From the IMG/VR virus record IMGVR_UViG_3300042350_004798, positions 1-26,507 of that record: a stretch of DNA of 26,507 nt; one strand, 5' to 3'. The first letter of the stretch is position 1, and each line of letters starts with the position of its first letter. Of this stretch, positions 5,570-26,416 are shown piece after piece. A model generated the notes under the pieces. It searched no databases. It was not told where the DNA came from and was given only the letters and a program-made list of their open reading frames with translations. Origin of the DNA: a virus. Position numbers and translations under genes: made by a program.

Positions 5570-5592
5570 TTTGGCGTCCCTGTCCAAAAAAT

Positions 5593-5986: not shown

Positions 5987-5994
5987 ACCCTCAA

Positions 5995-6219: not shown

Positions 6220-6224
6220 TGGGG

Positions 6225-7523: not shown

Positions 7524-7535
7524 CGAGTAGCCTTT

Positions 7536-11123: not shown

Positions 11124-11989
11124 TATTCTAGCCCCGCAAATTTTCTGAGTTCCTGAACTTCCTCTGGACTTGCCGACCCAGGGTCGTCTGCGTCCAGAGT
11201 TACTTGCAGTGTTTCCCCTGGAAACACTGCTAAATCGCCAGCGAGTCGCGAAGCGACTCGCTGTGCGTCCGACGAATTGTCGAAGCAGATTATCCTACGA
11301 GGATAACCTGCCATCAGTCTAACCTGCTCTTGCGTGTACGCAAGACCGAAGGTACAAACGGCTCCATCTCCGATGTTCGCCATGTCGAAGAACCCTTCTA
11401 CCACAATGATCGTGTTGGTACAAGTTTCTGCTCCGAAAAGTATGTCCTTTTCGGACATACTTTTCTGGTCATCGGCAGCGGTCTTGTACCGCTGTCCGTC
11501 TACGGCTTCTCGGAATCGAATGGTCCAAGAGACGGGTCTGCCGTTAAACGTAATCGGAATGAAAATTCCCTTGGGTAGTCCCGTGAAAGGGCCGATTGAC
11601 CTAAGGGCATATCGCTCTGCAATTCGATCAGCGTCCAGTCCCCGGTTGAGCAAGTACGCTCGATCTCGTTGACTAAGGGCCATAAGGCCCGGAGGGGGTG
11701 TGTACTGTCCATACCGGGCAAGGCTGCTGCTAATATCCGGTGTAGCGAAGGCTCGGAGATGTTTGAGGGCATCTAGGTTTTCCCTAGTCAGAATGCGAAG
11801 TGTGTAAAGAACGTCTTTCTTCCCGCACTTGTAGCAGTTTGCGCAGGAGAAATCGTTTTTGATCCCCAAGTGGTTCTTCTGCCCGTGGCAGAAGGGACAC
11901 TTGGTGTTGGTCCAGCCCAGACGATAGTGCGTATCGTCTGGGCTTGCGACCGATATGTTATGCCTTTGGAGCAGATCCGTGGGTGTCAT
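11123..11989 (-). CDS. DNA primase (zinc finger plus TOPRIM)
   Basis: 288 aa. The N-terminal zinc finger is CPFC (31-34) with Cys at 49, 52 and 55 (CANCYKC). A TOPRIM-like core follows: VVEGFFD (196-202) carries the catalytic Glu, and CFDNSSDA (235-242) the Asp pair. It lacks the fused helicase of T7 gp4, fitting the separate DnaB at 3357-4673. It overlaps the gene before it by 32 bases. Its DNA holds at least five perfect hairpins of 8-13 bp, including one of 13 bp at each end of the gene. Confidence 0.88.
   Translation of the reverse strand: MTPTDLLQRHNISVASPDDTHYRLGWTNTKCPFCHGQKNHLGIKNDFSCANCYKCGKKDVLYTLRILTRENLDALKHLRAFATPDISSSLARYGQYTPPPGLMALSQRDRAYLLNRGLDADRIAERYALRSIGPFTGLPKGIFIPITFNGRPVSWTIRFREAVDGQRYKTAADDQKSMSEKDILFGAETCTNTIIVVEGFFDMANIGDGAVCTFGLAYTQEQVRLMAGYPRRIICFDNSSDAQRVASRLAGDLAVFPGETLQVTLDADDPGSASPEEVQELRKFAGLE
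11206..11944. repeat. Hairpin cluster inside the primase gene
   Basis: Perfect inverted repeats (left arm/right arm): 11206-11216/11220-11230 (11 bp), 11239-11249/11253-11263 (11 bp), 11435-11447/11453-11465 (13 bp), 11876-11883/11887-11894 (8 bp), 11914-11926/11932-11944 (13 bp). Shorter ones of 6-7 bp lie at 11290-11306, 11329-11344 and 11476-11494. A nested stem at 11162-11199 is the leftmost of the series. Loops are 3-5 nt and differ in sequence. Confidence 0.9.
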
Positions 11990-12575
11990 TGTACTCGTTC
12001 ATCAATCGGACGAAGGGTAACGATTCACCCTGGCTCTTAGCAATTCCATGCAGGAATTGCTGAAACTTTGGGTGGTTGACCTCGAACTTGCGGAACTTCG
12101 GCGAGAAGGTTCCGCAGATTCGCTCGAACCACAGGAACGCAAACTCACTTGCCGGTGGCAAGTGAGTCACTAGCGTCTCGGCCACCCCCGTCTTTTGTTT
12201 CAAGTATGAAACAAAAGCGGTGTAGGTGTCCATGCAATGCTGGATGTACTCAAGGCCGATTGTGTTCTCCAGGCGGCCCAGGACTTCCTGGGCCGTCTCG
12301 GTGATCGGGTAGTCGTCCAGCGCATTCTTTTGCCGAGACAGCAATTCCTTGAACGAATGCCGAAACAAAGCACTGGTGATGTTCTTGACTGACTCTGGCT
12401 GCTTTCGCAGCCACGTCAACATCTTGTCGATGTCGGCGTAGCTGTAGGTTTTGAGCAGTTCGTTGAAGTCCTTCAACGAACTGTTCTGGCCCCCGCTGAC
12501 CTTGATATGCTTCCGGCGAAGCCGGACAGCAGGGGACTCAGTTTTCGGTTGGTCGGGTTCAGGAATCAGTGGCAT
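11958..12575 (-). CDS. Hypothetical protein next to primase
   Basis: 205 aa, mostly helical (LKTYSYADIDKMLTWLRKQ, SVKNITSALFRHSFKELL, PKFRKFEVNHPKFQQFL). A basic, Pro-rich head precedes (MPLIPEPDQPKTESPAVRLR). It sits directly before the primase and overlaps it, so a replication role is plausible, but I recognise no family. Hairpin-rich at the DNA level. Confidence 0.65.
   Translation of the reverse strand: MPLIPEPDQPKTESPAVRLRRKHIKVSGGQNSSLKDFNELLKTYSYADIDKMLTWLRKQPESVKNITSALFRHSFKELLSRQKNALDDYPITETAQEVLGRLENTIGLEYIQHCMDTYTAFVSYLKQKTGVAETLVTHLPPASEFAFLWFERICGTFSPKFRKFEVNHPKFQQFLHGIAKSQGESLPFVRLMNEYNDTHGSAPKA
12039..12526. repeat. Hairpin cluster inside 11958-12575
   Basis: Perfect stems: 12039-12047/12053-12061 (9 bp), 12089-12096/12109-12116 (8), 12143-12153/12157-12167 (11), 12192-12202/12207-12217 (11), 12274-12282/12287-12295 (9), 12396-12402/12407-12413 (7, GAAA loop on the mRNA strand), 12456-12468/12471-12483 (13, two-base centre), 12512-12517/12521-12526 (6). 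Seven of the eight fall within 400 bases. Confidence 0.9.
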
Positions 12576-12891
12576 AGTTCGCAGGTGGGTGAAGGTTTCC
12601 TTTGTCGTCGCGAGTCCATCCGTTGAGGATTTTCTCGATGTGTTCTCGGGTGGCTTCGGGGTGGTTGTTGTCCCATGCGTCTTGTAGATCGACTTCGTAT
12701 TTCCGTCCCGGATAAAGCTCCGTCTCGTCTGGTTTAGCGCACTGGACCCTCACAACCATACCGCAAATATCAATTCGCACAGACCACGGGGTGACATGAA
12801 GCCACGTAGGGCTATACCACGGTTGTAGCTTGGTTATGATCGCGTCGGCGATGAAGCCGCTTGGGGATACTTTGCTTTTGGTCCTACCCAT
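12559..12891 (-). CDS. Hypothetical protein
   Basis: 110 aa, MGRTKSKVSPSGFIADAIIT..., with a strand-rich centre (WSVRIDICGMVVRVQC) and an acidic, helical C-terminal half (WDNNHPEATREHIEKILNGW). It overlaps both neighbours by a few bases. Unlike the genes around it I see no strong hairpin in its DNA. No family recognised. Confidence 0.6.
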   Translation of the reverse strand: MGRTKSKVSPSGFIADAIITKLQPWYSPTWLHVTPWSVRIDICGMVVRVQCAKPDETELYPGRKYEVDLQDAWDNNHPEATREHIEKILNGWTRDDKGNLHPPANYATDS

Positions 12892-13174
12892 TTTGAGCTT
12901 CCAATTGTTTGAGTTTCGGTTGTAGTTGTTCCAACGAGGATCGCAGTTTTCTGCGATCCTCGATTTCCTGCTTCCTGGCTTTCTTTAGGCGTTGCACCGG
13001 TACAAAGAGCTTTTGGCCTTCGTCCAAAGCTCTTTGCAATACCACCGCCATGAGATCCTCGACTGTGCAATCCAGTTGGATTGCCAGCGTCTTGATACCC
13101 GTGACCAACTGCTCGGGCAGTCGGTTCACGGTCAAAGCTCTAGTGCTTAGTTTTGTGGGGTCGCTTGTTGCCAC
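12884..13174 (-). CDS. Ribbon-helix-helix-type protein with coiled-coil tail
   Basis: 96 aa from a GTG preceded by AGGAGG. Its first 35 bases overlap the end of the Snf2 gene. LSTRALTVNRLPEQLVTGIK then TLAIQLDCTVEDLMAVVLQRAL has the strand-helix-helix order of RHH DNA-binding proteins. The tail (LKKARKQEIEDRRKLRSSLE...) is a charged coiled coil. Hairpins at 12935-12962 (12 bp, TTTT/AAAA loop), 13003-13036 (13 bp with one bulge) and 13067-13084 (7 bp). Possibly a small regulator. Confidence 0.6.
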   Translation of the reverse strand: MATSDPTKLSTRALTVNRLPEQLVTGIKTLAIQLDCTVEDLMAVVLQRALDEGQKLFVPVQRLKKARKQEIEDRRKLRSSLEQLQPKLKQLEAQNG

Positions 13175-15554
13175 TGAGTAGTCCTCCTGTTTCTGATAAA
13201 AGTAAATCCAACACAGGCATCGTCGCGGCCTGTCGGCCATCGACGATGCTGTTCGCAACCTGTTGCTTGGTCTGAATCGCCTTGCAGATACGTTCTTCGA
13301 CCGTATCTGGCACGACGAGGTAGTAAATGTCGCAGGTTTCCTTCTGGCCGATTCGGTGAACGCGATCTGCTCCTTGGGCCATCACCGCAGGTGTCCACCA
13401 CATCTCGGCGTTGGCAATCGTGCTTGCCGCTGTAAGCGTCAAGCCGACCCCCGCTGCCTTGATGTTCCCAACCAGAAGTCTGCATTGTGGATCGGTCTGA
13501 AACCGATCCACAATGCCCTGTCGTTTCTTCGTCGGAGTCGAGCCGTCGATGACGACGACGTTTTCCTCCGGCAAAATTCTACGCTTGAGAACGTCCACCA
13601 TTTGCGTATGCACCGCAAAAAGGATCAACTTCTCTTTAGAGTTGTCACGGAAAAACTTCCGTGACCAATCCACCACGGCGCGAGCCTTGAGTCGGCTCGT
13701 AAGCCTGAGCAGAATGCCGAGCCGTGTGACGGCTTCGGCTTTCTGCGCGCTGGTGACGCTCCCGTACTTACTGTTCTGAGCCAGCCATCCCATGAAGTCG
13801 GCCTCGGCGGCGTCGAGGTCGCTTCGGTCGTCCAAGTGCAACGGGACGACGATCATCTTCTTCTCGGGGAGGTCGAGTACGTCCTCTTTGAGTCGTCTGA
13901 GCATGAAGGGTTTGATCTTCTCATGGAGTTCCCCCAAGTTGGTCGCGCCCTTGTATTCCCACCCCCAATGCGTCTTACGAGGCTCGCAGTAGCGAGTCGC
14001 GTAAGCCTGCCAAGCAGGGAATAGCTCAGGTCGAATGATGTTCAGGATCGGCCAGAAGTCGGCAGGCCGGTTCATCACCGGCGTGCCTGACATTCCGATC
14101 ACCTTGGTCGTCAGACGGCTAAGGTACTTAGCCGCCTTGGTCCGCTTGCTGGCCCGGTTGCTGAGGTTGTGGACCTCGTCAAAAGCGATGCACTTCCACT
14201 GATAGCGGCCAAGTAGTGGCCGCTGGTCGTAGAGGATGTCGTAGTTGACGATCACCGCCTTGGGCAGTTCGTCGGGCAGAGTCGCAAGCGACTTGCCCTC
14301 GACGACCAACGAGTCGGCATCAGCCCACATCTTGAGTTCGCGCTGCCAGTTTCCCTTTAGGGAAGCTGGGCAGACGATCAGTAGGGGCCAGAGACTTTGG
14401 CGAGCAGCCAAAGTCGCGACTTGGGCAGTGTTGTGCGTCAATATGTACTGATCTGTCACATACAACTTGTCCTCGGCGGCCACGCTGATGCAATACGAAT
14501 CTGCCGGACACTCCAAGCGTTCTATGCTAACCAACCTGCGACTAGGCAATGCCCTCGGGCCTGGGACATATCTGCCAGCCTTTCGGATAACACTAAATGG
14601 GAGGATGCCCGCAGGGAGTCGCAAACATACACAAAACTCTATAGGCTTCCCTTGGTGGCTTCTATCGTATTGATGGAGTGTTGCCACCCCACCTAAACTT
14701 TGAACAAGAGTCACTATATCCCTAGCTAGTCTTGGGGAAATTGTGGAATAGCTTAGCCTGTTTCGTGTTTTGGATATGCTACCATCACAATCCATCAATC
14801 CTTGCAGAAGGCTTATTCGATCCTTAGCCGATGCTTCTAGGTATACCTTAGGTATGAATTTATCCACGCTCTTGCAGTTGAGTTCAAGTTGCTCTACGGA
14901 ATCTCGTAGTGCTACTCTGTAACCTATGCGAGTTACAGTGCCTCGTGTCTCGACATTGCCCTGGAATACATTCCCAGTCGCATCGCCAGACAATCGTTGT
15001 TGCACACAAGGCCAATCTACAGTACCTACAGTCAATACCATCTGCCTACCGCCCAAACTCCCGTTTGCTATTAAGCATCCAAGGAAATACGGGTCTATTG
15101 GTAGTTCTGATTGTGTTTGTGTGCCCACAAATGGATTTGTAAGCATCGGAAGGTAGTAGGTTTTCTTGGTTGTTTCGAGATCATCGAGGAACTCCAAAGT
15201 AGTTTTAACCACTCTGGTTTTTGCTTTTCCGCCTTTCCAATAATCCATTGCCCACAGATGCTCTGGCCCTGCTTCGCAGGTAGAGCCATCATTGAATGTG
15301 AGTCTATAGACATCCTTTACGCCTTGCGGAAAGACTCCTGTAACCTCAGTAAAGTCGCCGTTTGATCCGACAACTCTATCTCCAACTTGCAGACGGCCTA
15401 TTGGAAGCCACCCATTGTTGGTCAATACGAGGGAGTACCAGGGTTGTTGTTTTCCCAAGCCCTGCTCGTCTGCAAGTAGAATTCCGCCGTGGACTTTCGC
15501 CATAAAGTCCACGCCTTGTTCTTGGTAGGGGAACAGTTTTTGCTTGGTAGCCAT
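13140..15554 (-). CDS. Snf2-family DNA helicase/translocase interrupted by an intein
   Basis: 804 aa precursor; 464 aa after splicing. Helicase motif I is split, DEQGLGK (29-35) rejoining Thr376. The DEAH-box equivalent is FDEVH (458-462), GMSGTP lies at about 487-492, and motif VI is QGADRVHRIGQ (727-737). SWI2/SNF2 proteins use ATP to move along duplex DNA; phage copies are thought to act in replication, recombination or displacing bound proteins. AGG-containing sequence precedes the ATG. Overlaps the next gene by 35 bases. Function requires splicing, because the ATP-binding loop is broken by the insertion. Confidence 0.92.
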   Translation of the reverse strand: MATKQKLFPYQEQGVDFMAKVHGGILLADEQGLGKQQPWYSLVLTNNGWLPIGRLQVGDRVVGSNGDFTEVTGVFPQGVKDVYRLTFNDGSTCEAGPEHLWAMDYWKGGKAKTRVVKTTLEFLDDLETTKKTYYLPMLTNPFVGTQTQSELPIDPYFLGCLIANGSLGGRQMVLTVGTVDWPCVQQRLSGDATGNVFQGNVETRGTVTRIGYRVALRDSVEQLELNCKSVDKFIPKVYLEASAKDRISLLQGLMDCDGSISKTRNRLSYSTISPRLARDIVTLVQSLGGVATLHQYDRSHQGKPIEFCVCLRLPAGILPFSVIRKAGRYVPGPRALPSRRLVSIERLECPADSYCISVAAEDKLYVTDQYILTHNTAQVATLAARQSLWPLLIVCPASLKGNWQRELKMWADADSLVVEGKSLATLPDELPKAVIVNYDILYDQRPLLGRYQWKCIAFDEVHNLSNRASKRTKAAKYLSRLTTKVIGMSGTPVMNRPADFWPILNIIRPELFPAWQAYATRYCEPRKTHWGWEYKGATNLGELHEKIKPFMLRRLKEDVLDLPEKKMIVVPLHLDDRSDLDAAEADFMGWLAQNSKYGSVTSAQKAEAVTRLGILLRLTSRLKARAVVDWSRKFFRDNSKEKLILFAVHTQMVDVLKRRILPEENVVVIDGSTPTKKRQGIVDRFQTDPQCRLLVGNIKAAGVGLTLTAASTIANAEMWWTPAVMAQGADRVHRIGQKETCDIYYLVVPDTVEERICKAIQTKQQVANSIVDGRQAATMPVLDLLLSETGGLLSGNKRPHKTKH
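13285..15513. repeat. Hairpins in the Snf2 exteins, none in the intein
   Basis: Perfect stems: 13285-13292/13302-13309 (8 bp), 13482-13496/13502-13516 (15 bp, the longest intragenic one), 13644-13652/13657-13665 (9), 14116-14123/14127-14134 (8), 14204-14211/14217-14224 (8), 14393-14401/14407-14415 (9), 15488-15497/15504-15513 (10). Imperfect ones lie at 13681-13699, 13974-14005 and 14046-14069. Inside the intein the best is a 7-bp stem at 14917-14938. Confidence 0.88.
14430..15449 (-). mobile_element. Class 3 intein with LAGLIDADG homing endonuclease
   Basis: 340 residues inserted exactly between Lys and Thr of the Snf2 P-loop GLGK/T. It starts with Gln instead of Cys/Ser/Ala and ends Thr-His-Asn. 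The class 3 W-C-T signature is present: Trp66 in block B (EHLW), Cys320 in block F (SYCISV), Thr338 before the penultimate His. The +1 extein residue is Thr. Two LAGLIDADG-like motifs, LGCLIANG (123-130) and LLQGLMDCDG (214-223), mark the homing endonuclease. Class 3 inteins start splicing at the block F Cys. They are known from Deinococcus Snf2 and mycobacteriophage DnaB. Confidence 0.93.
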
Positions 15555-15671
15555 CTATTCCTCGAACACTTCGGCGGAGAACCACTCAATGAGCTTCACA
15601 GCCGCATAGGCTGCGAAGCAAATCCCGCAGGTGGAGGCTACGCAGTAGCCGACTTCACTCCAATCGATCAT
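15555..15671 (-). CDS. Tiny hydrophobic protein
   Basis: 38 aa, MIDWSEVGYCVASTCGICFA followed by AYAAVKLIEWF. The ATG overlaps the csrA stop (ATGA) and the stop abuts the Snf2 ATG with no spare base. A cysteine-containing hydrophobic stretch may insert in the membrane. The exact fit argues it is translated. Function unknown. Confidence 0.55.
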   Translation of the reverse strand: MIDWSEVGYCVASTCGICFAAYAAVKLIEWFSAEVFEE

Positions 15672-15859
15672 CCTCGCACTCCTTGAGCTAGTCCAGCTTC
15701 TTTGGGTTTCACAAGTTCTTCTCGGAGGACGCGAACGTCCTCCGGGGCTTCAATCTTGACTCGGACTCGCTTTCCGCGAACGACAACAATCGTGACTCGA
15801 ATGTCGTCGCCAATCGTTATGGATTCGTTGGGATGTCGAGTAAGGGACAGAGCAGGCAT
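15668..15859 (-). CDS. csrA: CsrA/RsmA-family RNA-binding regulator
   Basis: 63 aa from MPALSLTRHPNESITIGDDI, with GAGG seven bases before the ATG; a longer in-frame start lacks this. CsrA normally reads LILTRR-GE---IGDDI-VTVL then APKEV-VHREE. Here LSLTRHPNESITIGDD, VRVKIEAPEDV and LREE (45-48) keep the core strands and the key Arg. CsrA dimers bind GGA in RNA hairpin loops to control translation and mRNA stability. A phage copy could redirect host regulation or act on phage mRNA. A 9-bp hairpin (15723-15731/15736-15744) lies inside the gene, with a TTCG loop on the mRNA strand. Confidence 0.88.
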   Translation of the reverse strand: MPALSLTRHPNESITIGDDIRVTIVVVRGKRVRVKIEAPEDVRVLREELVKPKEAGLAQGVRG

Positions 15860-15947
15860 CTTTAACCTCAATGATTTCGTATAGAACAGGTTTAGGGGAA
15901 CTGCATCCTGCTGCGACAAGCAGCAGGATGGGTAGGTATCGGAGCAT
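15750..15947 (-). CDS. Small lipoprotein
   Basis: 65 aa. MLRYLPILLLVAAGCSS is a complete lipoprotein signal with lipobox VAAGC, so Cys would be lipidated and the rest exported. Phage o-spanins have this layout, but no partner i-spanin is evident. The frame has no stop until 15750, so its last third overlaps csrA out of frame and is probably not conserved. A perfect 11-bp hairpin (15904-15914/15920-15930) lies within the signal-peptide codons. Confidence 0.55.
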   Translation of the reverse strand: MLRYLPILLLVAAGCSSPKPVLYEIIEVKDACSVPYSTSQRIHNDWRRHSSHDCCRSRKASPSQD

Positions 15948-15954
15948 GGTTCGA

Positions 15955-15999
15955 CTATCTTCGATCTTGCGGCGGGGGTATTGGTTCTTTTGTTGGCAT
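15955..15999 (-). CDS. 14-residue ORF with strong ribosome site
   Basis: MPTKEPIPPPQDRR. Very short, but its ATG follows GGAAGGAGTG at optimal spacing, and it lies alone between the upstream gene and the lipoprotein ATG seven bases downstream. It could be a leader peptide coupling translation into the lipoprotein and csrA. Too short to support from sequence alone. Confidence 0.25.
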   Translation of the reverse strand: MPTKEPIPPPQDRR

Positions 16000-16001
16000 G
16001 G

Positions 16002-16361
16002 TTACACTCCTTCCAATCCCAGCAACCTAGCCGCTTCGCGAGCGTTTGCTAGGGACACTGTTTGAGCTTTCCTGTTGAACGGGGACAATTGCTTTTCGAT
16101 CTCTCGGATGATCCGCTGGACTTCGATGTACTCTAGGTACTGATCCTCGCTATCCCAAAGCCTTCCGGGCGAGGAGTAACCTTCCCCGTAGACATCCCTC
16201 CAATTTTCGGATGTCAAGTCGAGCCGGTAGCCGTTGCTTAGGGTTGCCCACTTTCGCCCTACTTTCGTGACTGACACCAAACTGTCTTTGCCGTGTCTTT
16301 TCTCCCTGCGGGAGAAAAAGAAAATCGCTCCGACGACGCAGGCTTTTGGACTTTTGCTCAC
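16002..16361 (-). CDS. Hypothetical protein
   Basis: 119 aa from a GTG (VSKSPKACVV) that follows GGAGGGAG at the end of the sigma-like gene. The first part (VGRKWATLSNGYRLDLTSENW) looks beta-rich; the C-terminal part (DQYLEYIEVQRIIREIEKQL) is a helix ending in LLGLEGV. It is coupled to the sigma-like gene. Hairpins include 16298-16306/16310-16318 (9 bp). No family recognised. Confidence 0.6.
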   Translation of the reverse strand: MSKSPKACVVGAIFFFSRREKRHGKDSLVSVTKVGRKWATLSNGYRLDLTSENWRDVYGEGYSSPGRLWDSEDQYLEYIEVQRIIREIEKQLSPFNRKAQTVSLANAREAARLLGLEGV

Positions 16362-16363
16362 GA

Positions 16364-16810
16364 TTACACTCCCTCCAAAACAGAATCGAACGCCTCGGCG
16401 ATTCGATTCTTGCCCCAACCCGCTTCGACAAGAGCGTTTTCAACGCTCTTGCGAATCGTCTTGTGTTTCTTGCCGCTCGCGGCAAGATCCAAAGCAAGTC
16501 GAACCACCACCGACGAATCGTCGTCGGAGCTTCCTTCGGGACAAGCCGCCGTGTTCCCACAAACCTCGTCAGAATTGCTCTTGACACAGGCTCGGACTTT
16601 GCGGGACCGCAAAGTCGTGATGATCTGGCGGCTCACCACCATGTAGATGTACGTCTGGAGTTTGGCCTTTTCGGGGTCAAATCGTGAAATTCTCTCGGAA
16701 ACAGCCAAATATCCATCAGAAATCGCATCGTCGATGTCCACGTTGTACTTCCGAGCGATGGTGATGGCGAAAACTTTGGCAAGGTGATAAGCATCGGTAT
16801 AATCAGGCAT
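16364..16810 (-). CDS. Sigma-70 region-2-like protein
   Basis: 148 aa. The ATG follows AGGAGG; upstream in-frame sequence is non-coding in style. DDAISDGYLAVSERISRFDP then AKLQTYIYMVVSRQIITTLR matches sigma-70 region 2, the part that binds the -10 element and core polymerase. Sigma region 4 is not clear; after a linker the C-terminus has a possible helix-turn-helix (SVENALVEAGWGKNRIAEAF). It heads the leftward operon, so it may direct phage gene timing, or be a degenerate sigma relative with another role. It is packed with hairpins. Confidence 0.72.
   Translation of the reverse strand: MPDYTDAYHLAKVFAITIARKYNVDIDDAISDGYLAVSERISRFDPEKAKLQTYIYMVVSRQIITTLRSRKVRACVKSNSDEVCGNTAACPEGSSDDDSSVVVRLALDLAASGKKHKTIRKSVENALVEAGWGKNRIAEAFDSVLEGV
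16382..16616. repeat. Hairpin cluster inside the sigma-like gene
   Basis: Five perfect stems in 235 bases: 16382-16390/16402-16410 (9 bp, with a further 4-bp stem inside), 16429-16438/16442-16451 (10), 16468-16475/16480-16487 (8), 16510-16516/16521-16527 (7), 16595-16604/16607-16616 (10). All lie within the C-terminal half of the reading frame. Confidence 0.9.
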
Positions 16811-16900
16811 AGTAACCTCCTGGGGAATGAAACAACTGTTCAAGTAGCTTATCGTCTTGTTGCCTTGTTGCAATGACAACTTCCCAGATTTCGGATCAAA

Positions 16901-17341
16901 ATGACCAAAATAAACAAAAATTGCAACCTCGGCGACGTAGTTCGAGTGGTCTTTGACGACCACGCCGTGGGCGCGCAACACATTGTTTTTGAGGTCTTTG
17001 GTCGGGTTTTGCGGAAGGATAGGCGATCATTTGTGATCGCCTGTTGGAAGTACGCTGACTCAGACGAGCATGAACAAGACGCAAACGTGACGGCCTATAC
17101 GATTCTCCGCGCAGCGGTGAAGTCAATCGAAGTCCTAACCCCCAAAGAACCATGCCAATCCCCCACCACAAGATCGAAGATGACGGCAAGCAACTCCCCC
17201 CGAAAGCGTGCAAGTTCTGCTCCTGGACATCCGGCGGTGGCAAGAACCGCGAATGCCGATACAGCCCTCCCCGAGCCACCGGATTCCCCAAGGTCCGACA
17301 CGACGACTGGTGTTCCAAGTACGAACCCAACGACCACCTGA
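16901..17341 (+). CDS. Hypothetical protein with out-of-phase extension
   Basis: 146 aa. The first 85 or so residues (NLGDVVRVVFDDHAVG, VFEVFGRVLRKDRRSFVIAC, KSIEVLTPKEP) read as an ordinary small domain. After TPKEP the composition changes abruptly to Ser/Thr/Pro/Arg-rich, and this part overlaps the next gene by 190 bases in another frame. Either the natural stop was lost, or there is a frameshift near the CCCCCAAAG run at about 17138. A 9-bp hairpin lies at 17021-17042. First gene of the short plus-strand operon. Confidence 0.6.
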   Translation: MTKINKNCNLGDVVRVVFDDHAVGAQHIVFEVFGRVLRKDRRSFVIACWKYADSDEHEQDANVTAYTILRAAVKSIEVLTPKEPCQSPTTRSKMTASNSPRKRASSAPGHPAVARTANADTALPEPPDSPRSDTTTGVPSTNPTTT

Positions 17342-17418
17342 TCGATGCGGAGATCCTTCGGAAATCCGCAGAGACAGCCAAGAAACTCGCCATCGAGAAA
17401 GCTCTCAACCCTAAATGA
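17152..17418 (+). CDS. Four-cysteine, probable zinc-binding small protein
   Basis: 88 aa. CKFCSWTSGGGKNRECRYSP followed by FPKVRHDDWCSKYEP has the C-x2-C ... C-x-x-PP ... DWC layout common in small bacterial and phage metal-binding proteins. A helical tail follows (EILRKSAETAKKLAIEKAL). Stop overlaps the next ATG (ATGA). Real coding is better supported here than in the overlapping end of the gene upstream. Confidence 0.7.
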   Translation: MPIPHHKIEDDGKQLPPKACKFCSWTSGGGKNRECRYSPPRATGFPKVRHDDWCSKYEPNDHLIDAEILRKSAETAKKLAIEKALNPK

Positions 17419-17789: not shown

Positions 17790-17798
17790 GGCAATCCG

Positions 17799-18855: not shown

Positions 18856-18863
18856 GGCAAGAA

Positions 18864-20381: not shown

Positions 20382-20403
20382 ATTTCCAAAATAATCTAAC
20401 CCA

Positions 20404-20432
20404 TTGACATGCGATAGGGGTCTGGTTACAAT
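20404..20432 (+). promoter_or_regulatory. Near-consensus sigma-70 promoter
   Basis: TTGACA (20404-20409) and TACAAT (20427-20432) are separated by exactly 17 bases, a perfect -35 and a five-of-six -10. Transcription would start near 20439-20440 and run rightward, first into the hairpin region and, if not terminated, toward PhoH 650 bases away. This is the only promoter in the window I would call with confidence. Confidence 0.75.
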
Positions 20433-20439
20433 TTACGGC

Positions 20440-20624
20440 ATCTCGTAGGGCCAACTCGGTCGCTAGATGGGTTCGCTGGCCTGATTCCTTAGGGAATTGC
20501 AGGGCCACTGCTAAACAGGGAGCAAGTAAGCGTGATGCCGAAAGCCTCGGAATGCCTGTGTACGATAAGCGATCTACGAGAAAGAAACGTGACCGAAGGG
20601 CGTTGCAACGCCCTTCGGTCTTTT
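20440..20624 (+). ncRNA. Candidate small RNA with own promoter and terminator
   Basis: About 185 nt from the predicted start to the T-run of the terminator. No convincing ORF lies here. The 5' end TCTCGTAG (20441-20448) can pair with CTACGAGA (20574-20581) just before the terminator. GGCCA/TGGCC (20449-20453/20477-20481) and ATTCC/GGAAT near 20484 give internal stems. No known RNA family was recognised; group I intron, tmRNA and tRNA motifs were looked for and not found. It may be a regulatory RNA or an attenuated leader for the rightward operon. Confidence 0.45.
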
Positions 20625-20662
20625 CGCGTTTCGCAACAAAAACACGTTTCTTTCTCGTAGAT
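20572..20662. repeat. 20-bp perfect inverted repeat around the terminator
   Basis: 20572-20591 is the exact reverse complement of 20643-20662, with 51 bases between, which include the terminator stem. The outer stem can form only in RNA that has passed the terminator. Its left arm shares CTACGAGA with the partner of the transcript's 5' end, so three segments compete for pairing. Confidence 0.9.
20591..20624 (+). terminator. Intrinsic terminator, 14-bp stem
   Basis: 20591-20604 pairs perfectly with 20607-20620 (GACCGAAGGGCGTT), leaving a two-base centre, so the working loop is TGCA or similar. TTTT follows at once, then CGCG. The T-run is short, so read-through may be substantial. It lies about 150 bases after the promoter and inside a larger 20-bp inverted repeat. 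Confidence 0.6.
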
Positions 20663-21085
20663 AAACGACGAGCTATTCGTAACAAAACTCAATACGCTGG
20701 CCCCCACTACGGAGGGCAGGCTACTCCACCGAACAGGCGGTGGCAGGTAAACTTCGGTACGGCGAAAGGGGCACTGCCTACTAGGCAGTTCCACGCAACG
20801 GGTGGGTGGTCGATCCCACAATAAGAACAACGCCGTGGTCACTCTCTGATTCCAGATAAACCAAAAGCCCTGCCGGTGGTTCCCAAACACCGGAAGAAAC
20901 CGTACCGAGAGCCATAAGTAACCAGCGTCCCCCTAGCGGGGAACTTGATTTCCTTCTGTATGGTGGGGAATCAGGAGGGATGTTCGTTTGGCTTTTTCCG
21001 AACTTGGCAGGAAGTTTTCCTGCCGCTCGAAGTCGGCTACAATGGTGGGCAGTCTTGCCCACCACTCTTACCTAGAAAGCCAAAA
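20663..21085 (+). other. Gene-free leader region with foldable sequence before PhoH
   Basis: No coding frame is convincing here. CGGTACGG (20755-20762) can pair with CCGTACCG (20900-20907), enclosing ACTGCCT/AGGCAGT (20773-20779/20783-20789) and CCGGTG/CACCGG (20873-20878/20888-20893). CCACCG/CGGTGG (20726-20731/20738-20743) lies just outside. TCCCC/GGGGA follows at 20928-20942. Nearer the gene are an 8-bp stem (21006-21013/21017-21024) and a 9-bp stem (21043-21051/21056-21064). The density suggests a structured 5' leader, but no riboswitch class was recognised. Confidence 0.4.
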
Positions 21086-21712
21086 ATGGCTAAGCCTGAG
21101 CCGGTCGTAGATCCTAGTCCTCGTCGAAAGTTCAACGCGAGTCAGGAATCGGGTATGAAACTTTTGCAGGAATTCCCGATAGTGGCCCTAGTCGGCCCGG
21201 CGGGTTCGGGCAAGACGCACCTTGCCCTCGAATACGCCGGGTGGGCGATTCGCAGGCAGAGGGCCGAACGAGTCTTTTTCGTTCGGTCCCCGGTTGAGAT
21301 GGGTCGCAGTTCGCTGGGGTTCATCCCCGGCGAACCGAACGAAAAGATGGCCCCCTACGTCGCGCACGCCAAGGAGATCGCCAAGTCGATTGGCATCAGC
21401 GAACACGCGCTGAGCGTCGTTCCGCTGTGCTACGTTCAGGGGCGGACTTTCACCGATGCTGTGGTGATTGTGGACGAGTGCCAAGTCCTCGACTTGGACG
21501 AGTTCAGAGCCATCGTCACTCGACTCGGCAAAGGATCTTCGATGATTTTTTGCGGAGATCCCGCTCAGGATACTAGACACCGTGGGCAATTCCGAGTATT
21601 TTTAGACAAGATCGAGGGCTTGTCGTGCGTTGCGGTTCAGCAGTTTTCAACTGCTGACAACATGCGCCACCCTGCGATTGTTGAAATACTCAATGCTTTG
21701 GAGGATGCCTGA
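21086..21712 (+). CDS. phoH: PhoH-family P-loop ATPase
   Basis: 208 aa from MAKPEPVVDPSPRRKFNASQ. An in-frame ATG at 20945 would add 47 residues that look like leader sequence rather than protein. Walker A is GPAGSGKT (37-44), Walker B VIVDECQ (127-133), and CGDPAQDTRH follows, all typical of PhoH. The family binds RNA or DNA and is very common in phages; its role there is unsettled. It opens the rightward operon, but no strong ribosome site is visible, fitting control by its structured leader. Hairpins at 21264-21286 (8 bp), 21481-21497 (7) and 21637-21657 (9). Confidence 0.9.
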   Translation: MAKPEPVVDPSPRRKFNASQESGMKLLQEFPIVALVGPAGSGKTHLALEYAGWAIRRQRAERVFFVRSPVEMGRSSLGFIPGEPNEKMAPYVAHAKEIAKSIGISEHALSVVPLCYVQGRTFTDAVVIVDECQVLDLDEFRAIVTRLGKGSSMIFCGDPAQDTRHRGQFRVFLDKIEGLSCVAVQQFSTADNMRHPAIVEILNALEDA

Positions 21713-21903
21713 TGGTCAATTTTCTGTACGCCACACTCGGTGCTATTTTGCTGGTCGGACTGGCCGGTTGCATGTACATCGAGCTTGATTCTCGATCTCG
21801 GAGACTCGACACTCTCACCAAGGAGTTCGAGATCCGCATCGCGGAACTCGAAGTCCGTGTAGGCGAATACGAAGTGCAAAGCACTTCGACGGGTGCAGAA
21901 TGA
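21712..21903 (+). CDS. Small membrane-anchored coiled-coil protein
   Basis: 63 aa. VNFLYATLGAILLVGLAGCMYI is a membrane segment with a lipobox-like LAGC, followed by a charged coiled coil (RRLDTLTKEFEIRIAELEVR). Its start overlaps the PhoH stop (TGATG). First of a series of tiny membrane proteins. An 8-bp hairpin (21870-21877/21881-21888) sits near the end. Confidence 0.65.
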   Translation: MVNFLYATLGAILLVGLAGCMYIELDSRSRRLDTLTKEFEIRIAELEVRVGEYEVQSTSTGAE

Positions 21904-22082
21904 CCCCCACCGAAGCCAACACAAGAAACATCGAAGCTCTGATCCTCATGACGCAAGTGCTGTGGGTACTTTTGGCTGTTATTTTCGTTTTCGGAGTGCC
22001 CTGGCTTTACGAATTGGAGCAACGACTCGATAGGTTCGAGGCGTTGCACCCTGAACCCGTTTGCGAGAAGTGCGGCAAATGA
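21900..22082 (+). CDS. Small membrane protein with CxxC tail
   Basis: 60 aa. NIEALILMTQVLWVLLAVIF plus VFGVPWLYELE is hydrophobic, and the end, PVCEKCGK, offers a CxxC knuckle. ATGA overlaps at both ends. Function unknown. Confidence 0.6.
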   Translation: MTPTEANTRNIEALILMTQVLWVLLAVIFVFGVPWLYELEQRLDRFEALHPEPVCEKCGK

Positions 22083-22300
22083 TTAACCTAATCGGCGACT
22101 TCATAAAAGCAGCGAGGGCGGAAGCAGTTCGGATCGAATCGAATCCGTGGTTCGCTTGGTTGCCTGAGTCTTGGGAAGATTTCAGCTACCTCTGTGCGTT
22201 CTACTTTGCGATGTGTTGCCTCGGGGTAGTGGTGTTGCTACCTATCGCTGTGTTGTTGCTGGCTGGGTACGCTTGTGGGCATTTAGCAGGAGTTTGGTAA
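22079..22300 (+). CDS. Small membrane protein
   Basis: 73 aa from MINLIGDFIKAARAEAVRIE; the ATG overlaps the upstream TGA. FAMCCLGVVVLLPIAVLLLA near the C-terminus is a membrane segment, preceded by an aromatic patch (PWFAWLPESWEDFSYL). Function unknown. Confidence 0.6.
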   Translation: MINLIGDFIKAARAEAVRIESNPWFAWLPESWEDFSYLCAFYFAMCCLGVVVLLPIAVLLLAGYACGHLAGVW

Positions 22301-22301
22301 T

Positions 22302-22448
22302 ATGACTGAAACTGGACTAATCACTTGGTACATCGTTCAGCTTGTGCTATGGACTGGGCCTTTCGGCGTGGCGGCATTTTTGGTGGGTTGTTTCTTCGCA
22401 GGCTATTTTTTAGGCCGTTGGCTGTCTAATCGGGGGCGTGGTAAATGA
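22302..22448 (+). CDS. Small two-segment membrane protein
   Basis: 48 aa, MTETGLITWYIVQLVLWTGP then FGVAAFLVGCFFAGYFLG and a basic tail (RWLSNRGRGK). AGGAG lies ten bases before the ATG. Its TGA overlaps the next ATG. The tight fit in the operon supports it. Confidence 0.6.
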   Translation: MTETGLITWYIVQLVLWTGPFGVAAFLVGCFFAGYFLGRWLSNRGRGK

Positions 22449-22600
22449 AACGGGCAAGAAAGCGCGTGGCTAGGGCGGTTTTTGTTATGGTTTGGTTCGC
22501 GTTCCTACCGTTCGCTTTTGCGCATGTGGTGCTAGAGGCGATTATGCTCGGAGTCTACTCAATGCTTGACAGCCTAGAGGAAATCGCAAATGACGAATGA
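22445..22600 (+). CDS. Small membrane protein with basic head
   Basis: 51 aa, MKRARKRVARAVFVMVWFAF then LPFAFAHVVLEAIML and an acidic tail (DSLEEIANDE). The positive-inside rule places the N-terminus in the cytoplasm. Overlaps the next gene by 11 bases. Function unknown. Confidence 0.6.
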   Translation: MKRARKRVARAVFVMVWFAFLPFAFAHVVLEAIMLGVYSMLDSLEEIANDE

Positions 22601-22775
22601 ACACGACGAAATCAAACACCTGCGGGGTCAAATGCGAAGCATCGAAAACGATGTTGGGCAAATGAACGCCAACACCCTGCTGTTGGTGCTTATCTCAGCG
22701 ACTAGCCTCATGCTCAATCTCGTCCAGATTATTTTATTTGCTGTTTTCATGTCGCAACAAGGGAGCGGACAATGA
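22590..22775 (+). CDS. Small tail-anchored coiled-coil protein
   Basis: 61 aa. A charged N-terminal helix (HDEIKHLRGQMRSIENDVGQ) precedes one membrane segment (LLLVLISATSLMLNLVQIIL). The layout resembles 7536-7697. Coupled by ATGA to the next gene. Confidence 0.6.
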   Translation: MTNEHDEIKHLRGQMRSIENDVGQMNANTLLLVLISATSLMLNLVQIILFAVFMSQQGSGQ

Positions 22776-23101
22776 CCGAAGCCAAAGTGCCAGAAGTACA
22801 CATCGAACCGAAGATCCAACAGATCCAACTGAGAGTGGTTTCCGAAGTGCCGAGTTCGGTTGAGCCGTTCATGCTGCTTTCGGCAGTTTCGTTTGTTTTG
22901 TGCGGTGTTTTGATCTTCACTTGCATTGTCCTGAGCCTCCGACTACAGCGACTCGAAGCCTACCAAGGCATCGACTCAGTCGGAAAGGTAATCAAGGACT
23001 CCGATTGGAGGCAAGACCACAAGAGACTCAACGACAACGTCAATTCGGCTGTTGATTCCATCAACAGCCGAATAGAGAAACTGGAAGGGGAAACCAAGTA
23101 A
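22772..23101 (+). CDS. Membrane protein with soluble flanks
   Basis: 109 aa. A strand-rich N-terminal part (VPEVHIEPKIQQIQLRVVSE), one membrane segment (FMLLSAVSFVLCGVLIFTCI), and a C-terminal coiled coil (DHKRLNDNVNSAVDSINSRI). A perfect 13-bp hairpin, 23043-23055/23061-23073, encodes part of that coil. The stop overlaps a possible 22-codon ORF. Confidence 0.65.
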   Translation: MTEAKVPEVHIEPKIQQIQLRVVSEVPSSVEPFMLLSAVSFVLCGVLIFTCIVLSLRLQRLEAYQGIDSVGKVIKDSDWRQDHKRLNDNVNSAVDSINSRIEKLEGETK

Positions 23102-23169
23102 TGGCATTGCTTCTGTTCGTGTTTTGGGTAGGCTTTCTTTGTCTCGTATGTTCAGGACTCGGTAAATGA
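23101..23169 (+). CDS. 22-residue hydrophobic ORF
   Basis: MALLLFVFWVGFLCLVCSGL plus GK. Very short, but it starts in the upstream stop codon and its TGA overlaps the next ATG, exactly as with its neighbours. It may be a genuine single-span micropeptide. Confidence 0.35.
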   Translation: MALLLFVFWVGFLCLVCSGLGK

Positions 23170-23279
23170 TCGAACCCATTGGATCAAGTCTTTCGCCCCT
23201 AGTGTTCGAGTTGTTGCATTTAGCGATATGTTATTCTACCGCTCGACTGGTGGTCATACGATTCCAGATGCCGGATTAA
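23166..23279 (+). CDS. 37-residue ORF
   Basis: MIEPIGSSLSPLVFELLHLA followed by ICYSTARLVVIRFQMPD. Starts with an ATGA overlap and ends ten bases before the next ATG. Moderately hydrophobic. Support is positional only. Confidence 0.35.
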   Translation: MIEPIGSSLSPLVFELLHLAICYSTARLVVIRFQMPD

Positions 23280-23288
23280 GGACAGCGA

Positions 23289-23534
23289 ATGACGAGCGAA
23301 CCCAAAGTACCCGAAGAAACCCAAGACCCCTGGGAGTCGGCAACGGCGATGCGTTGCCGAGACGAAACCAAACCGGATCAACACACCCAAGAATCACAGC
23401 CGGTAGACTGGATCGGCACGTTGGTGCTTTTCGTTGTGCTGTACTCGCTGGTTGTGGGTGCTTACCTTGCAGGTAAGCACCAAGACACCATCCAAAAGAA
23501 GATCGAACAAGTGCGAAGGAACTGGGCGAAATGA
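23289..23534 (+). CDS. Small single-span membrane protein
   Basis: 81 aa. An acidic, Pro/Gln-rich head (EPKVPEETQDPWESATAMRC) precedes a membrane segment (WIGTLVLFVVLYSLVVGAYL) and a basic tail (KHQDTIQKKIEQVRRNWAK). Hairpins at 23337-23360 (9 bp) and 23457-23481 (11 bp), the second at the end of the membrane segment. Stop overlaps the next ATG. Confidence 0.65.
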   Translation: MTSEPKVPEETQDPWESATAMRCRDETKPDQHTQESQPVDWIGTLVLFVVLYSLVVGAYLAGKHQDTIQKKIEQVRRNWAK

Positions 23535-23866
23535 TCGACTTCCCACGAGACAAACGCAAGTGGACGATCTTCCACAAGATCGCCCACTCCAACCCTAGAA
23601 TCGGAGCCCAGTTGCTTGTAGTCCTGGAGGACTACAAGCAGGAAAAAAGCGAGATTCGACAATGGCTTACCGACGTTGAATTGATTGACAGTCTCATGCG
23701 AAGCCACCCCGAAATCATAGCACACTCAACCGTGTCGGGATGGCAGAACTTTCTCAAAAAGGTGCGTAATGGCAAAATCGAAATCACTACTCGGAAGCCT
23801 CCAAAAAACCGTAGCCGAAAAGCAGGAAAAGCTCCAACAGGCCGCCGAGTCGCAAAAGCCAAATGA
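23531..23866 (+). CDS. Hypothetical protein, overlaps metallophosphatase start
   Basis: 111 aa. Helical core (IGAQLLVVLEDYKQEKSEIR, VSGWQNFLKKVRNG) and a strikingly basic tail (RKPPKNRSRKAGKAPTGRR) encoded in the 98 bases that overlap the next gene in another frame. A 12-bp hairpin (23633-23644/23649-23660) and a 7-bp one (23565-23582) lie inside. Function unknown. Confidence 0.6.
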   Translation: MIDFPRDKRKWTIFHKIAHSNPRIGAQLLVVLEDYKQEKSEIRQWLTDVELIDSLMRSHPEIIAHSTVSGWQNFLKKVRNGKIEITTRKPPKNRSRKAGKAPTGRRVAKAK

Positions 23867-25025
23867 CCTCTCGGCCACGTTCTCCGACGATGTCGGAGAT
23901 CTTGTCTACCACGGAGACAAGATCAAAACGGTAGAAGAACTGCTCTCGCACGCCAAAGTCGATCTCGACGTTTGGGAAGTCGCTGAGTACAAAATCAATC
24001 GCTGGGAAGTCGCCGGGAAGCGAAAAGTTGCCATAGGCACAAAGAGCATCGAAACGCTGTGGCAAGTCCCCAACTTGCAGATCACAGTCAAGCTCCGCCG
24101 AAAGGCCCCCAAGACGATCCAAGAGGGCATCCTTGGCTTGATCGCCAAGTTCCCCCAAGCACCCAAGCCAAAGCCCCGCAAGGCTCGCCCCGCTTCGCAT
24201 CTCGTTGAATTCAGCCTGTACGACTGCCACTTCGGGAAGCTCTGTTGGGGGAAGCAAACAGGGTCGGATGACTACGATCTCCAAATAGCCACCGAGGACT
24301 ATACCCAAGCCGTCGATCACATGGCCGAGCATGTGAGTCACTATGCCGTCGACGAGGTCGTCATTCCCCTTGGGAATGACTTCCTCCACTTCGATGACTT
24401 CTCTACCAAGGCCACAACCAAGGGCACAATCGTCGATTCCACCGACGACCGGCCAACGAAGGTATTCCGAGCCGGATACGGCGTGTTGAAACACGCCGCT
24501 GATGTCGCCTTGCAGATCGCAAACAAAGTCCACTTTGTTTGGGTTCCGGGCAACCACGACTACCACGCAAGCTGGTACTTGGCTGAGCTTCTGAGCATCC
24601 ACTTTGCGAAGGACTCTCGCGTTGTCGTCGACAACGCTGAGACTCGCAAGCACAGACTCTACGGGAAAAACCTGATCGGATGGGACCACGGGGAAGGTAT
24701 GAGCCTGGAAAAGTTGGCCCACACCATGCCGATTGAAGCCGCCGAGTATTGGAGCCAAAGTGTGTACCGGTACATGCGAGTCGGCCACTTCCACAAAAAG
24801 AAGCAGATCCGCCACCTGAACACGGATACCTATGAGGGTATCCGTGTTGACGTTATCCCGAGCTTGTCCTCTACGGACAAGTGGCACTACAAAAATGGAT
24901 ACATCGGCAGCCAAAGGGCCGCCGAGGTCGCTGTATGGGACAAGGAAGCTGGCATGATTGCCAGCTTCACAGTTGAGGCACAAAGCGCAATCGAAAATAG
25001 GAAAAAGCAGCATGGTAAAGGCTAG
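23769..25025 (+). CDS. Calcineurin-like metallophosphoesterase
   Basis: 418 aa. The metal-binding motifs appear in the usual order: D-x-H (152-154, YDCHFG), GND (202-204), GNHD (261-264), a His in GWDHG (304-308) and GHFH (339-342). About 145 residues precede the phosphatase, including a helical start and a beta-rich part. Related phage enzymes are annotated as phosphatases or nucleases; the substrate is unknown here. The gene holds at least twelve perfect hairpins of 6-12 bp, eleven of them in codon register. Confidence 0.88.
   Translation: MAKSKSLLGSLQKTVAEKQEKLQQAAESQKPNDLSATFSDDVGDLVYHGDKIKTVEELLSHAKVDLDVWEVAEYKINRWEVAGKRKVAIGTKSIETLWQVPNLQITVKLRRKAPKTIQEGILGLIAKFPQAPKPKPRKARPASHLVEFSLYDCHFGKLCWGKQTGSDDYDLQIATEDYTQAVDHMAEHVSHYAVDEVVIPLGNDFLHFDDFSTKATTKGTIVDSTDDRPTKVFRAGYGVLKHAADVALQIANKVHFVWVPGNHDYHASWYLAELLSIHFAKDSRVVVDNAETRKHRLYGKNLIGWDHGEGMSLEKLAHTMPIEAAEYWSQSVYRYMRVGHFHKKKQIRHLNTDTYEGIRVDVIPSLSSTDKWHYKNGYIGSQRAAEVAVWDKEAGMIASFTVEAQSAIENRKKQHGKG
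23881..24968. repeat. Hairpin series inside the metallophosphatase gene
   Basis: Perfect stems: 23881-23888/23892-23899 (8 bp), 23898-23907/23915-23924 (10), 24062-24067/24073-24078 (6), 24132-24137/24144-24149 (6), 24317-24323/24330-24336 (7), 24360-24368/24372-24380 (9), 24479-24487/24490-24498 (9), 24520-24529/24532-24541 (10), 24619-24626/24630-24637 (8), 24819-24830/24837-24848 (12), 24863-24869/24875-24881 (7), 24945-24954/24959-24968 (10). All except 24863 are in codon register, for example GTC-ATT-CCC against GGG-AAT-GAC. Confidence 0.92.
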
Positions 25026-25560
25026 TTTGAATTACTTCCTGAACGTCCCCGGCCACCTGTTTGAAACCGAGGGGCGATTGCTACAGCAACTCGCCGAAGG
25101 AAAAAGGGTGCTGGACATCGGCACGCATCACGGCAGGGCCGCCGCCGCTATGGCGGCGACGGCAAAGCATGTAAAGACGATTGATTGGTATCAAGGAGAC
25201 TCGATGATCGGGGCTCCTGATGTGGATAAAGTCAAGGAACTGATCTACCCCTTGGAGAACGTCGAGTGCCTCTTTGGGGACTGGTTCGCTTTGCTTATGT
25301 GCAAATTGACTTTGTTTGCACCTGACACATACGACATGATCTTCTACGATGCCGCCCATCGGCCCCCAGAACCCTACGAGAAGGACTTCCTCGCCTGTGT
25401 AGCGGATTTCCCCGGAGTGATCGCCCTGCACGACTACAAGCCCAAATTGGAAGAATACGGACTCGCCGTGGCGGCGATGGACGACTTCGCAAAAAGAACG
25501 GGCCGAACGATGTTCGGCCCGGTCGCGGGATCTTCGATTGTGTGGTTCGAGGCTCTCTAA
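25012..25560 (+). CDS. Class I SAM-dependent methyltransferase
   Basis: 182 aa from MVKASLNYFLNVPG, overlapping the phosphatase end by 14 bases. RVLDIGTHHGRAAAAMA (32-48) is the SAM-binding loop, and YDMIFYDAAH matches the second acidic strand. ADFPGVIALHDYKP resembles the GG-ALHD-stretch of small-molecule or sugar O-methyltransferases (Methyltransf_24-like). The substrate is unknown; proteins or modified nucleotides are possible. A 10-bp hairpin lies at 25499-25521. It ends the rightward operon, with its stop overlapping that of the converging gene. Confidence 0.8.
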   Translation: MVKASLNYFLNVPGHLFETEGRLLQQLAEGKRVLDIGTHHGRAAAAMAATAKHVKTIDWYQGDSMIGAPDVDKVKELIYPLENVECLFGDWFALLMCKLTLFAPDTYDMIFYDAAHRPPEPYEKDFLACVADFPGVIALHDYKPKLEEYGLAVAAMDDFAKRTGRTMFGPVAGSSIVWFEAL

Positions 25561-25880
25561 GGCGTTTCCACACCGTCGAGGTTCTCGAAGGTAGGCAACC
25601 ACCGCCAATGCGTGACGTTGTCCACACGATAATCCTCCGGGAAAAGCTCCACCCCACACAACAGCCATCGGTTGGGCTTGTCTTGTTTGCCGGGGTAGTA
25701 CCTCGCTGTGAACATATCGAACACCCCACCCCGCCCCACCAAGACCAAAACGGGCATCGACGATTCCTCCTCGAAAGGCCCCCAAACAGCCATGAAAGGC
25801 AGGCAATCGCCTACGGCGTGCCATGCTTCGGGTTGAGGATCATGGCCTTCTCGGATGTGTGAATAATACTTTTTTGGCAT
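25557..25880 (-). CDS. DUF551-like protein
   Basis: 107 aa from MPKKYYSHIREGHDPQPEAW, with GGAGG eight bases upstream. MPVLVLVGRGGVFDMFTARY and the end, DNVTHWRWLP, resemble DUF551 phage proteins, which close with V/I-THW-PLP. The function of that family is unknown. Its stop overlaps the methyltransferase stop, so the two operons converge with no spacer and no visible terminator. Confidence 0.6.
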   Translation of the reverse strand: MPKKYYSHIREGHDPQPEAWHAVGDCLPFMAVWGPFEEESSMPVLVLVGRGGVFDMFTARYYPGKQDKPNRWLLCGVELFPEDYRVDNVTHWRWLPTFENLDGVETP

Positions 25881-25919
25881 GGTGCAAACCTCCAAAGAAA
25901 AACCAAACGAAAAAGAAAC

Positions 25920-26372
25920 CTACTCCGCATGACGACCGGCAAGCCGGTCGTCATCCACCGAACCCAAAATCGCCTCGCGGACAGCCTGTCGGCTCTCCGC
26001 GAATGCGGGAATCGTCCAACACCCCGGCGAGTTCTCATGTGCCCGGAACGGCGGCGTAGCCGCCGTTCCAGGCGGCCAGCTTCTTGTCACCCCTTCGAGG
26101 TCGTTCGCGTTGCGAACGACCGTTTCGGTGAGGTTGTACTGATCCTGGAACGAATCGCCGGGCTTGACTTCTTGCCCGAATCGGAGTTCACCGGCGGTGA
26201 ACTCCGGGAAGCCCGAAAGGAACCGCAGTTCGATGGCTTCGAGATCATCGACGGCTTTGCCGATGTTCCGAAGCTGGTTTGCGGCCTCCAGTTTCGCGTC
26301 GAGGGGGGTTTCCCCCTCGACGATCCACAGGCTAAGGCCCCCAAAAACTACCGCGAACTTACCCTTTGGCAT
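25920..26372 (-). CDS. Hypothetical protein
   Basis: 150 aa from MPKGKFAVVFGGLSLWIVEG. An in-frame start 90 bases upstream overlaps the previous gene and is less likely. LDAKLEAANQLRNIGKAVDD is helical, then FTAGELRFGQEVKPGDSFQD. Five perfect hairpins of 10-12 bp lie in its 453 bases, the highest density of long stems in any gene here. No family recognised. Confidence 0.65.
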   Translation of the reverse strand: MPKGKFAVVFGGLSLWIVEGETPLDAKLEAANQLRNIGKAVDDLEAIELRFLSGFPEFTAGELRFGQEVKPGDSFQDQYNLTETVVRNANDLEGVTRSWPPGTAATPPFRAHENSPGCWTIPAFAESRQAVREAILGSVDDDRLAGRHAE

Positions 26373-26416
26373 AGCTTGATACCCTAGTTGATTGGGTGCG
26401 ACTCGTTGAGTCGCAC
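25929..26416. repeat. Hairpin cluster at the right end
   Basis: Perfect stems: 25929-25940/25943-25954 (12 bp), 26045-26055/26059-26069 (11), 26099-26108/26112-26121 (10), 26182-26192/26196-26206 (11), 26297-26307/26312-26322 (11), 26396-26404/26408-26416 (9). Loops are 2-4 nt. A weaker compound stem lies at 25975-26001. Confidence 0.92.

Follow-up and report, generated by a model that had tools for sequence, protein, structure and literature searches.

The window analysed here is a stretch of 26,507 nucleotides of viral DNA (IMG/VR record IMGVR_UViG_3300042350_004798) whose right part carries a dense field of short hairpins, defined as perfect inverted repeats (IRs) with a stem of at least 8 bp and a loop of 2-12 nt. 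Using an inverted-repeat scan at this threshold, we found 73 hairpins in the window, 35 of them with a stem of at least 10 bp, and all were located between positions 11206 and 26416. The initial annotation of this DNA had reported 69 and 33, respectively, and its count proved accurate. The most frequent loop length was 3 nt (27/73). Dinucleotide shuffles of the right part (11161-26507) gave a mean of 2.4 hairpins (maximum 5) and a mean of 0.2 with a stem of at least 10 bp, and the left 11,160 bases contained no hairpin against a shuffle mean of 2.0. The annotation had proposed codon-preserving shuffles as a check. In 9.9 kb of right-half genes, synonymous-codon shuffles, which retain every protein and the codon usage, yielded a mean of 2.3 hairpins (maximum 9) compared to the 51 observed, far below the real count.

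The hairpin field and its distribution

The hairpins lie within genes of either strand and in a few leaders, as the annotation had described, and those at 11432 and 11435 overlap each other. The right limit of the field is only the end of the contig; in relatives the hairpins cover the whole genome. These relatives are uncultivated IMG/VR contigs linked via their primase and terminase genes, and they come from many metagenomes, mostly from lakes. At least 16 of them were hairpin-rich along their full length (3-7 hairpins/kb), with totals of 249 hairpins in 43 kb (G013), 237 in 50 kb (G003) and 179 in 61 kb (G010). The genome-wide density was 2.6-6.6 hairpins/kb in relatives with at least 71% primase identity and in G016 (60%), 0.5-0.8/kb in kin at about 61%, and close to chance at 51%. 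A second hairpin-rich clade comprises the distant G029 (41% primase identity, 2.7/kb) and its relative L113 (2.0/kb), while G028 has 0.55/kb despite a gene order matching that of G029. The primase tree is poorly resolved, and hairpin gains and losses cannot be counted from it. A search for cultured relatives found none that is close. The phages encode a terminase small subunit, DnaB, primase, clamp loader and family A polymerase, which are genes of tailed double-stranded DNA (dsDNA) phages, as well as a UvsX-like recombinase and SbcC/SbcD-like proteins. Judged from these contigs, the field characterises whole genomes in a lineage of dsDNA phages, with about 5 short perfect hairpins per kb lying within nearly all genes, and the comparisons show that the hairpins are passed on by descent and keep their positions.

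The left edge of the field, whose nature the initial annotation had missed, is by sequence matching a mosaic junction at which two unrelated phage types meet. The left part matches L051, a 41.4 kb contig from another metagenome, in which 1 hairpin was present in the 21 kb read and no primase match was found. In 39 loci of this left-part type there are 0-0.7 hairpins/kb, about the chance level. From about 11044 on, the window follows the hairpin-rich type (G008, G013), and the switch is located within a stretch nearly common to both parental types (Table 1). The junction may stem from natural recombination or from a chimeric assembly.

Table 1. Features of the window and selected hairpins
Feature	Position	Strand	Stem (bp)	Loop (nt or sequence)	Remark
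Hairpin-free left part	1-11108	none			99.95% identical to L051 (IMGVR 3300042866_001856); other, hairpin-poor phage type
Mosaic junction	11041-11108	none			about 65 bp nearly shared stretch, start of ORF 10386-11123
Primase-like gene, PHROG 47	11123-11989	-			7 hairpins; query used for finding relatives
Hairpin field	11162-26507	none	8-15	2-12	73 perfect inverted repeats, 4.8/kb, up to contig end
Hairpin	11206-11230		11	3	perfect in nearly all relatives
Hairpin	11239-11263		11	GAA	G-C to A-T double change in several relatives
Hairpin	11328-11345		8		several stem changes in relatives
Hairpin	11435-11465		13	5
Hairpin	11914-11944		13	5
Hairpin	12143-12167		11	3
Hairpin	12192-12217		11	4
Hairpin	12456-12483		13	2
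Hairpin	12935-12962		12	4
Hairpin	13003-13036		11	12
SNF2-family helicase gene, intein-interrupted	13140-15554	-			extein hairpin-rich
Hairpin	13482-13516		15	5
LAGLIDADG intein	14430-15446	-			0 hairpins vs 4.7/kb in adjoining extein
Hairpin	15904-15930		11	5
RNA polymerase sigma factor family match	16364-16981	-			carries hairpins
Terminase small subunit-like gene	18010-18825	-			carries hairpins
Intergenic hairpin	18831-18855		11	GAA	loop inverted between relatives, AAA vs TTT
402-aa gene, internal duplications	18864-20072	-			part of its hairpins are duplicate copies
Hairpin	19031-19055		11	3
Hairpin	19448-19467		9	TT	loop inverted to AA in L030/G013
Hairpin	19802-19826		11	3
Hairpin	20247-20272		11	4
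Hairpin	20591-20620		14	2
PhoH-like gene	20945-21712	+			carries hairpins
Hairpin	23043-23073		14	3
Hairpin	23457-23481		11	3
Hairpin	23613-23640		13	2
DNA repair exonuclease-like gene, PHROG 704	23769-25025	+			carries hairpins
Hairpin	24819-24848		12	6
Hairpin	25929-25954		12	2
Hairpin	26045-26069		11	3
Hairpin	26182-26206		11	3
Hairpin	26297-26322		11	4

Newly imported DNA was poor in hairpins. In the window the intein is free of hairpins, and its counterparts in three hairpin-rich relatives have 0, 1 and 1, against 3-5/kb in the adjoining exteins. Two phages whose exteins share 80% identity have inteins that are 97% identical, which indicates recent mobility. Similarly, G010 is hairpin-poor exactly at its foreign structural genes (44-57% identity to G003, elsewhere mostly about 90%). 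Because both segments lack the usual density, hairpins seem to accumulate with residence time in the genome. The intein itself apparently starts with Q and ends HN|T, and is horizontally mobile among these phages.

Most stems measure 8-11 bp and most loops 2-5 nt. The excess over shuffles was about 80-105 hairpins per stem length from 5 to 11 bp and then dropped steeply; in four contigs, stems longer than 12 bp were rare and the maximum was 15. With four contigs combined, the density was about 3.5/kb between genes and about 5.4/kb within them, with G010 as an exception (4.2 vs 2.7), and the coding density equalled or exceeded the intergenic density in 4 of 5 contigs. No regular spacing was found, the positions being Poisson-like apart from an exclusion below 40 nt. 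Among 884 non-redundant hairpins, loops were enriched for GAA, other GNA and GNNA with a 5'C..G3' closing pair, and the base pairs beside the loop were biased to G+C. The initial annotation had seen neither shared stem sequences nor a loop motif; the former holds, and the latter only in part. GNA and GNNA loops closed by C-G make unusually stable small DNA hairpins, and G+C-rich pairs beside the loop are not what favours cruciform extrusion. The hairpins favoured neither strand, whether judged by gene sense or by genome or replication direction (stable loops 211 vs 210); this is a sign test only, as the energy model disallows 2-nt loops and makes the loop-energy comparison unreliable. The annotation had also called the hairpins non-homologous, which is true of the field except for some copies that arose through duplication in the open reading frame (ORF) of the 402-amino-acid (aa) protein, where CGGTTGGCG occurs twice and GAGCCTGC three times. 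The protein itself has internal repeats (TGWRTPTVEDLK...), along with the duplicate hairpins.

Other observations concern the relatives. The family A DNA polymerase is split into two ORFs about 10 kb apart (L038:3234-4712 and L038:15000-16268, polymerase and 3'-5' exonuclease-like parts), and homologues of both occur throughout the family, hairpin-poor kin included. An SbcC-like ATPase (L038:16632-17762) adjoins a metallophosphoesterase (L038:17660-18664) in a hairpin-full phage; SbcCD enzymes cut hairpins. The hairpin-rich phage G013 encodes a CsrA-like RNA-binding regulator (L037:13524-13955).

Preservation of pairing and inversion of loops

We compared fourfold-degenerate sites between five close genome pairs, and found differences at 5.6% of sites in stems (52/928), 14.2% in loops (22/155), 16.7% in flanks (176/1057) and 13.7% elsewhere (653/4765). 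Stem sites thus change 2-3 times more slowly than loops or flanks. Between hairpin-rich phages, protein identity was about 0.90 at stem codons and about 0.80 elsewhere, compared to 0.56 and 0.58 against hairpin-poor kin. Stem codons are thus more conserved only among hairpin-rich phages, so the constraint was acquired along with the hairpins and does not belong to these protein positions as such.

Base pairs with both positions fourfold-degenerate were then considered in hairpins with at most two mismatches. Double Watson-Crick changes amounted to 0/252, 0/338, 28/584, 55/436, 43/125 and 26/70 pairs as fourfold divergence rose from 0.06 to 0.55, that is, 0/590 in the two lowest classes (0.06 and 0.16) and 37% in the highest, and broken pairs stayed at 3-9% over all classes. 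At 90-95% identity (divergence 0.16), 318 pairs were unchanged, 20 broken and none doubly changed, where neutral drift predicts about 99 altered pairs. Independent close pairs gave 49 unchanged, 2 broken and 0 double. These alignments show that pairing, not the bases, is preserved in the stems, and that the pairs covary. The comparison of arms in homologues, suggested by the initial annotation, revealed covarying changes in both arms, with double changes appearing only at larger divergence. For 10-pair stems in the densest clade, the excess of perfect, one-mismatch and two-mismatch forms was 287:102:75. The perfect to one-mismatch ratio was 75:60 in G029, indicating that the pressure differs among lineages.

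At 11 loci the loop of one phage was the exact reverse complement of that of another, with the arms intact. Among the 6 loci at which a 2-nt loop had changed in both bases, 5 showed exact inversion (chance 1/9, p=9e-5), as did all 3 loci at which every base of a 3-nt loop had changed (chance 1/27, p=5e-5). Exact loop inversion with intact arms in yeast genes has been attributed to template switching (PMC8604942), of which it is a known footprint (PMC8604942, PMC8794818). On this comparative evidence, template switching, or an equivalent flip, demonstrably acts on the hairpins, and the inversions make it very likely that the hairpins form in the cell at the DNA level. Changes falling mainly on a single arm were not in excess; the one-armed fraction was similar to or below that of the control geometry, in a comparison where events are unpolarised and births and losses are mixed. 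One-armed templated births were rejected on this ground.

Maintenance of the hairpins

We consider it probable that the hairpins are maintained by selection at the DNA level. They would act as DNA, either in single strands that fold while the genome is replicated or recombined, or as extruded cruciforms, and a mismatch would be disadvantageous. Purifying and compensatory selection would then act on the ability of single-stranded or extruded DNA to form hairpins, and template switching at folded hairpins would help to create and repair them, but alone would be insufficient to keep them.

The main alternative is a neutral mutational field, in which a replisome prone to switching templates at quasi-palindromes overwrites one arm with a copy of the other, filtered by protein function and without any need for the hairpin to be beneficial. 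The loop inversions are what this process leaves behind, and the lack of sequence or strand preference, the enrichment of the best-folding loops, the patchy distribution, the hairpin-free young inserts and the scarcity of stems above 12 bp all agree with it. However, if copying were fast enough to clear single mismatches, both-fourfold pairs would have to show double changes at roughly the neutral rate, and none occurred among the 590 low-divergence pairs, nor among the 51 independent pairs, where about 6 were expected. We estimate that holding single mismatches down five-fold by copying would require about 30 times the point-mutation rate and leave dozens of double changes at low divergence. 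The lack of a one-armed excess, an intergenic density not clearly above the coding density and the 287:102 surplus of perfect over one-mismatch stems also argue against it. Fast arm-to-arm copying as the keeper of perfect stems is contradicted by the missing low-divergence double changes together with the missing one-armed excess, and a neutral origin of the whole field appears possible but distinctly less likely than selection. The arm templating proposed in the initial annotation is therefore supported as a process that acts on the hairpins, and not as what preserves their stems.

That annotation had also offered selection on local mRNA or single-stranded DNA (ssDNA) structure. Selection on mRNA across genes (translation, decay, ordered RNA structure) would explain why hairpins lie in coding regions with conserved and covarying stems, but it would clearly favour G.U over A.C mismatches on the sense strand. 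In independent pairs, single changes produced 15 G.U and 21 A.C mismatches against a background of 1173:1150, and the two were about equally frequent in all divergence bins of the full both-fourfold set. GNA and TNC loops are likewise about equal on the sense strand, and hairpin stability is symmetric between strands. The missing G.U preference points to DNA rather than mRNA as the level of selection. Selection on mRNA structure was rejected for this reason and seems improbable, so that, of the structural selection proposed earlier, the DNA-level form is retained. The abundance of palindromes of similar size could recall a dispersed repeat, an uptake signal or a protein operator, yet the 884 non-redundant hairpins share no stem sequence, and we regard this origin, already dismissed in the initial annotation, as highly improbable. 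Chance or a sequencing or assembly artefact has a negligible probability: the mosaic window may itself have been assembled chimerically, but the counts far exceed shuffles, and the same hairpins recur with covarying changes in independent metagenomes, which excludes an artefact for the hairpins themselves.

Several points weigh against selection on DNA hairpins. Since template switching is active, mutation may account for some of the covariation. A lower mutation rate of base-paired DNA could mimic part of the stem constraint, and in that case the neutral alternative would gain most. The pairwise comparisons of both-fourfold pairs are not phylogenetically independent, and the independent set holds just 51 such pairs. 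No gene present in hairpin-rich phages and absent from hairpin-poor kin was found among gene calls that are simple ORF picks; the core genes are common to the hairpin-poor G028 and G017 too, and no hairpin-binding protein tracks the trait. A host search through prophages gave only distant primases and no host.

Known systems and significance

RNA viruses with genome-scale ordered RNA structure (GORS) and ssDNA viruses are structured throughout their coding regions, and their stems coevolve and change more slowly at synonymous sites. The field resembles them in its genome-wide extent, suppressed synonymous change in stems and coevolution, but it belongs to a tailed dsDNA phage and consists of local, strand-symmetric Watson-Crick hairpins of 8-12 bp with no G.U preference. 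The promoters of the N4 virion RNA polymerase are functional small DNA hairpins with 3-nt loops, at few sites of conserved sequence upstream of genes. They are likewise small DNA hairpins in a dsDNA phage, whereas here there are hundreds, without a motif and inside genes. Yeast coding IRs (PMC8604942) and RNA hairpins (PMC8794818) share the short loops, perfect arms and exact spacer inversion with intact arms in coding sequence. However, they involve tens of events per species, compared to hundreds of hairpins per 43-61 kb genome, and the stem constraint here exceeds what copying alone explains. A survey of 118,019 genomes reported a viral mean of 1.93 IR bp/kb, mainly intergenic, for arms of at least 10 and spacers of at most 8 (PMC13155455). 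By the same criteria, the right half of the window has 57.7, G013 80 and G003 63 IR bp/kb, mainly coding, with a range of 31-80 over these phages. The initial annotation knew of no such phage system, and our literature search, in which several queries were broad or returned little, likewise found no description of such a hairpin field in a dsDNA virus.

What the hairpins may be good for is more tentative. Folding could limit long unstructured ssDNA in replication or recombination intermediates, with regard to ssDNA nucleases, ssDNA-sensing defences and the loading of recombinase or single-strand-binding protein (SSB). We favour this benefit because the phages encode DnaB, primase, a split family A polymerase, a clamp loader, a UvsX-like recombinase and SbcC/SbcD-like proteins, but as a specific proposal it is rather unlikely to be correct. 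The broader idea, for which we see an even chance, is that the genes carry a second, sequence-independent layer of information: hundreds of selected DNA hairpins that would structure single-stranded intermediates, having built up slowly through vertical inheritance, and that new imports lack.

The question is directly testable, as relatives with and without hairpins have a common gene order, and the imported segments (the left part of the window, the intein and probably the G010 structural block) provide built-in controls. If the neutral alternative is true, these phages would be a natural laboratory for extreme template-switch mutagenesis. If selection acts genome-wide at the DNA level, dsDNA phage genes would conceal a layer of structure, and this would point to a selective force as yet unknown in replication, recombination or host defence on ssDNA.

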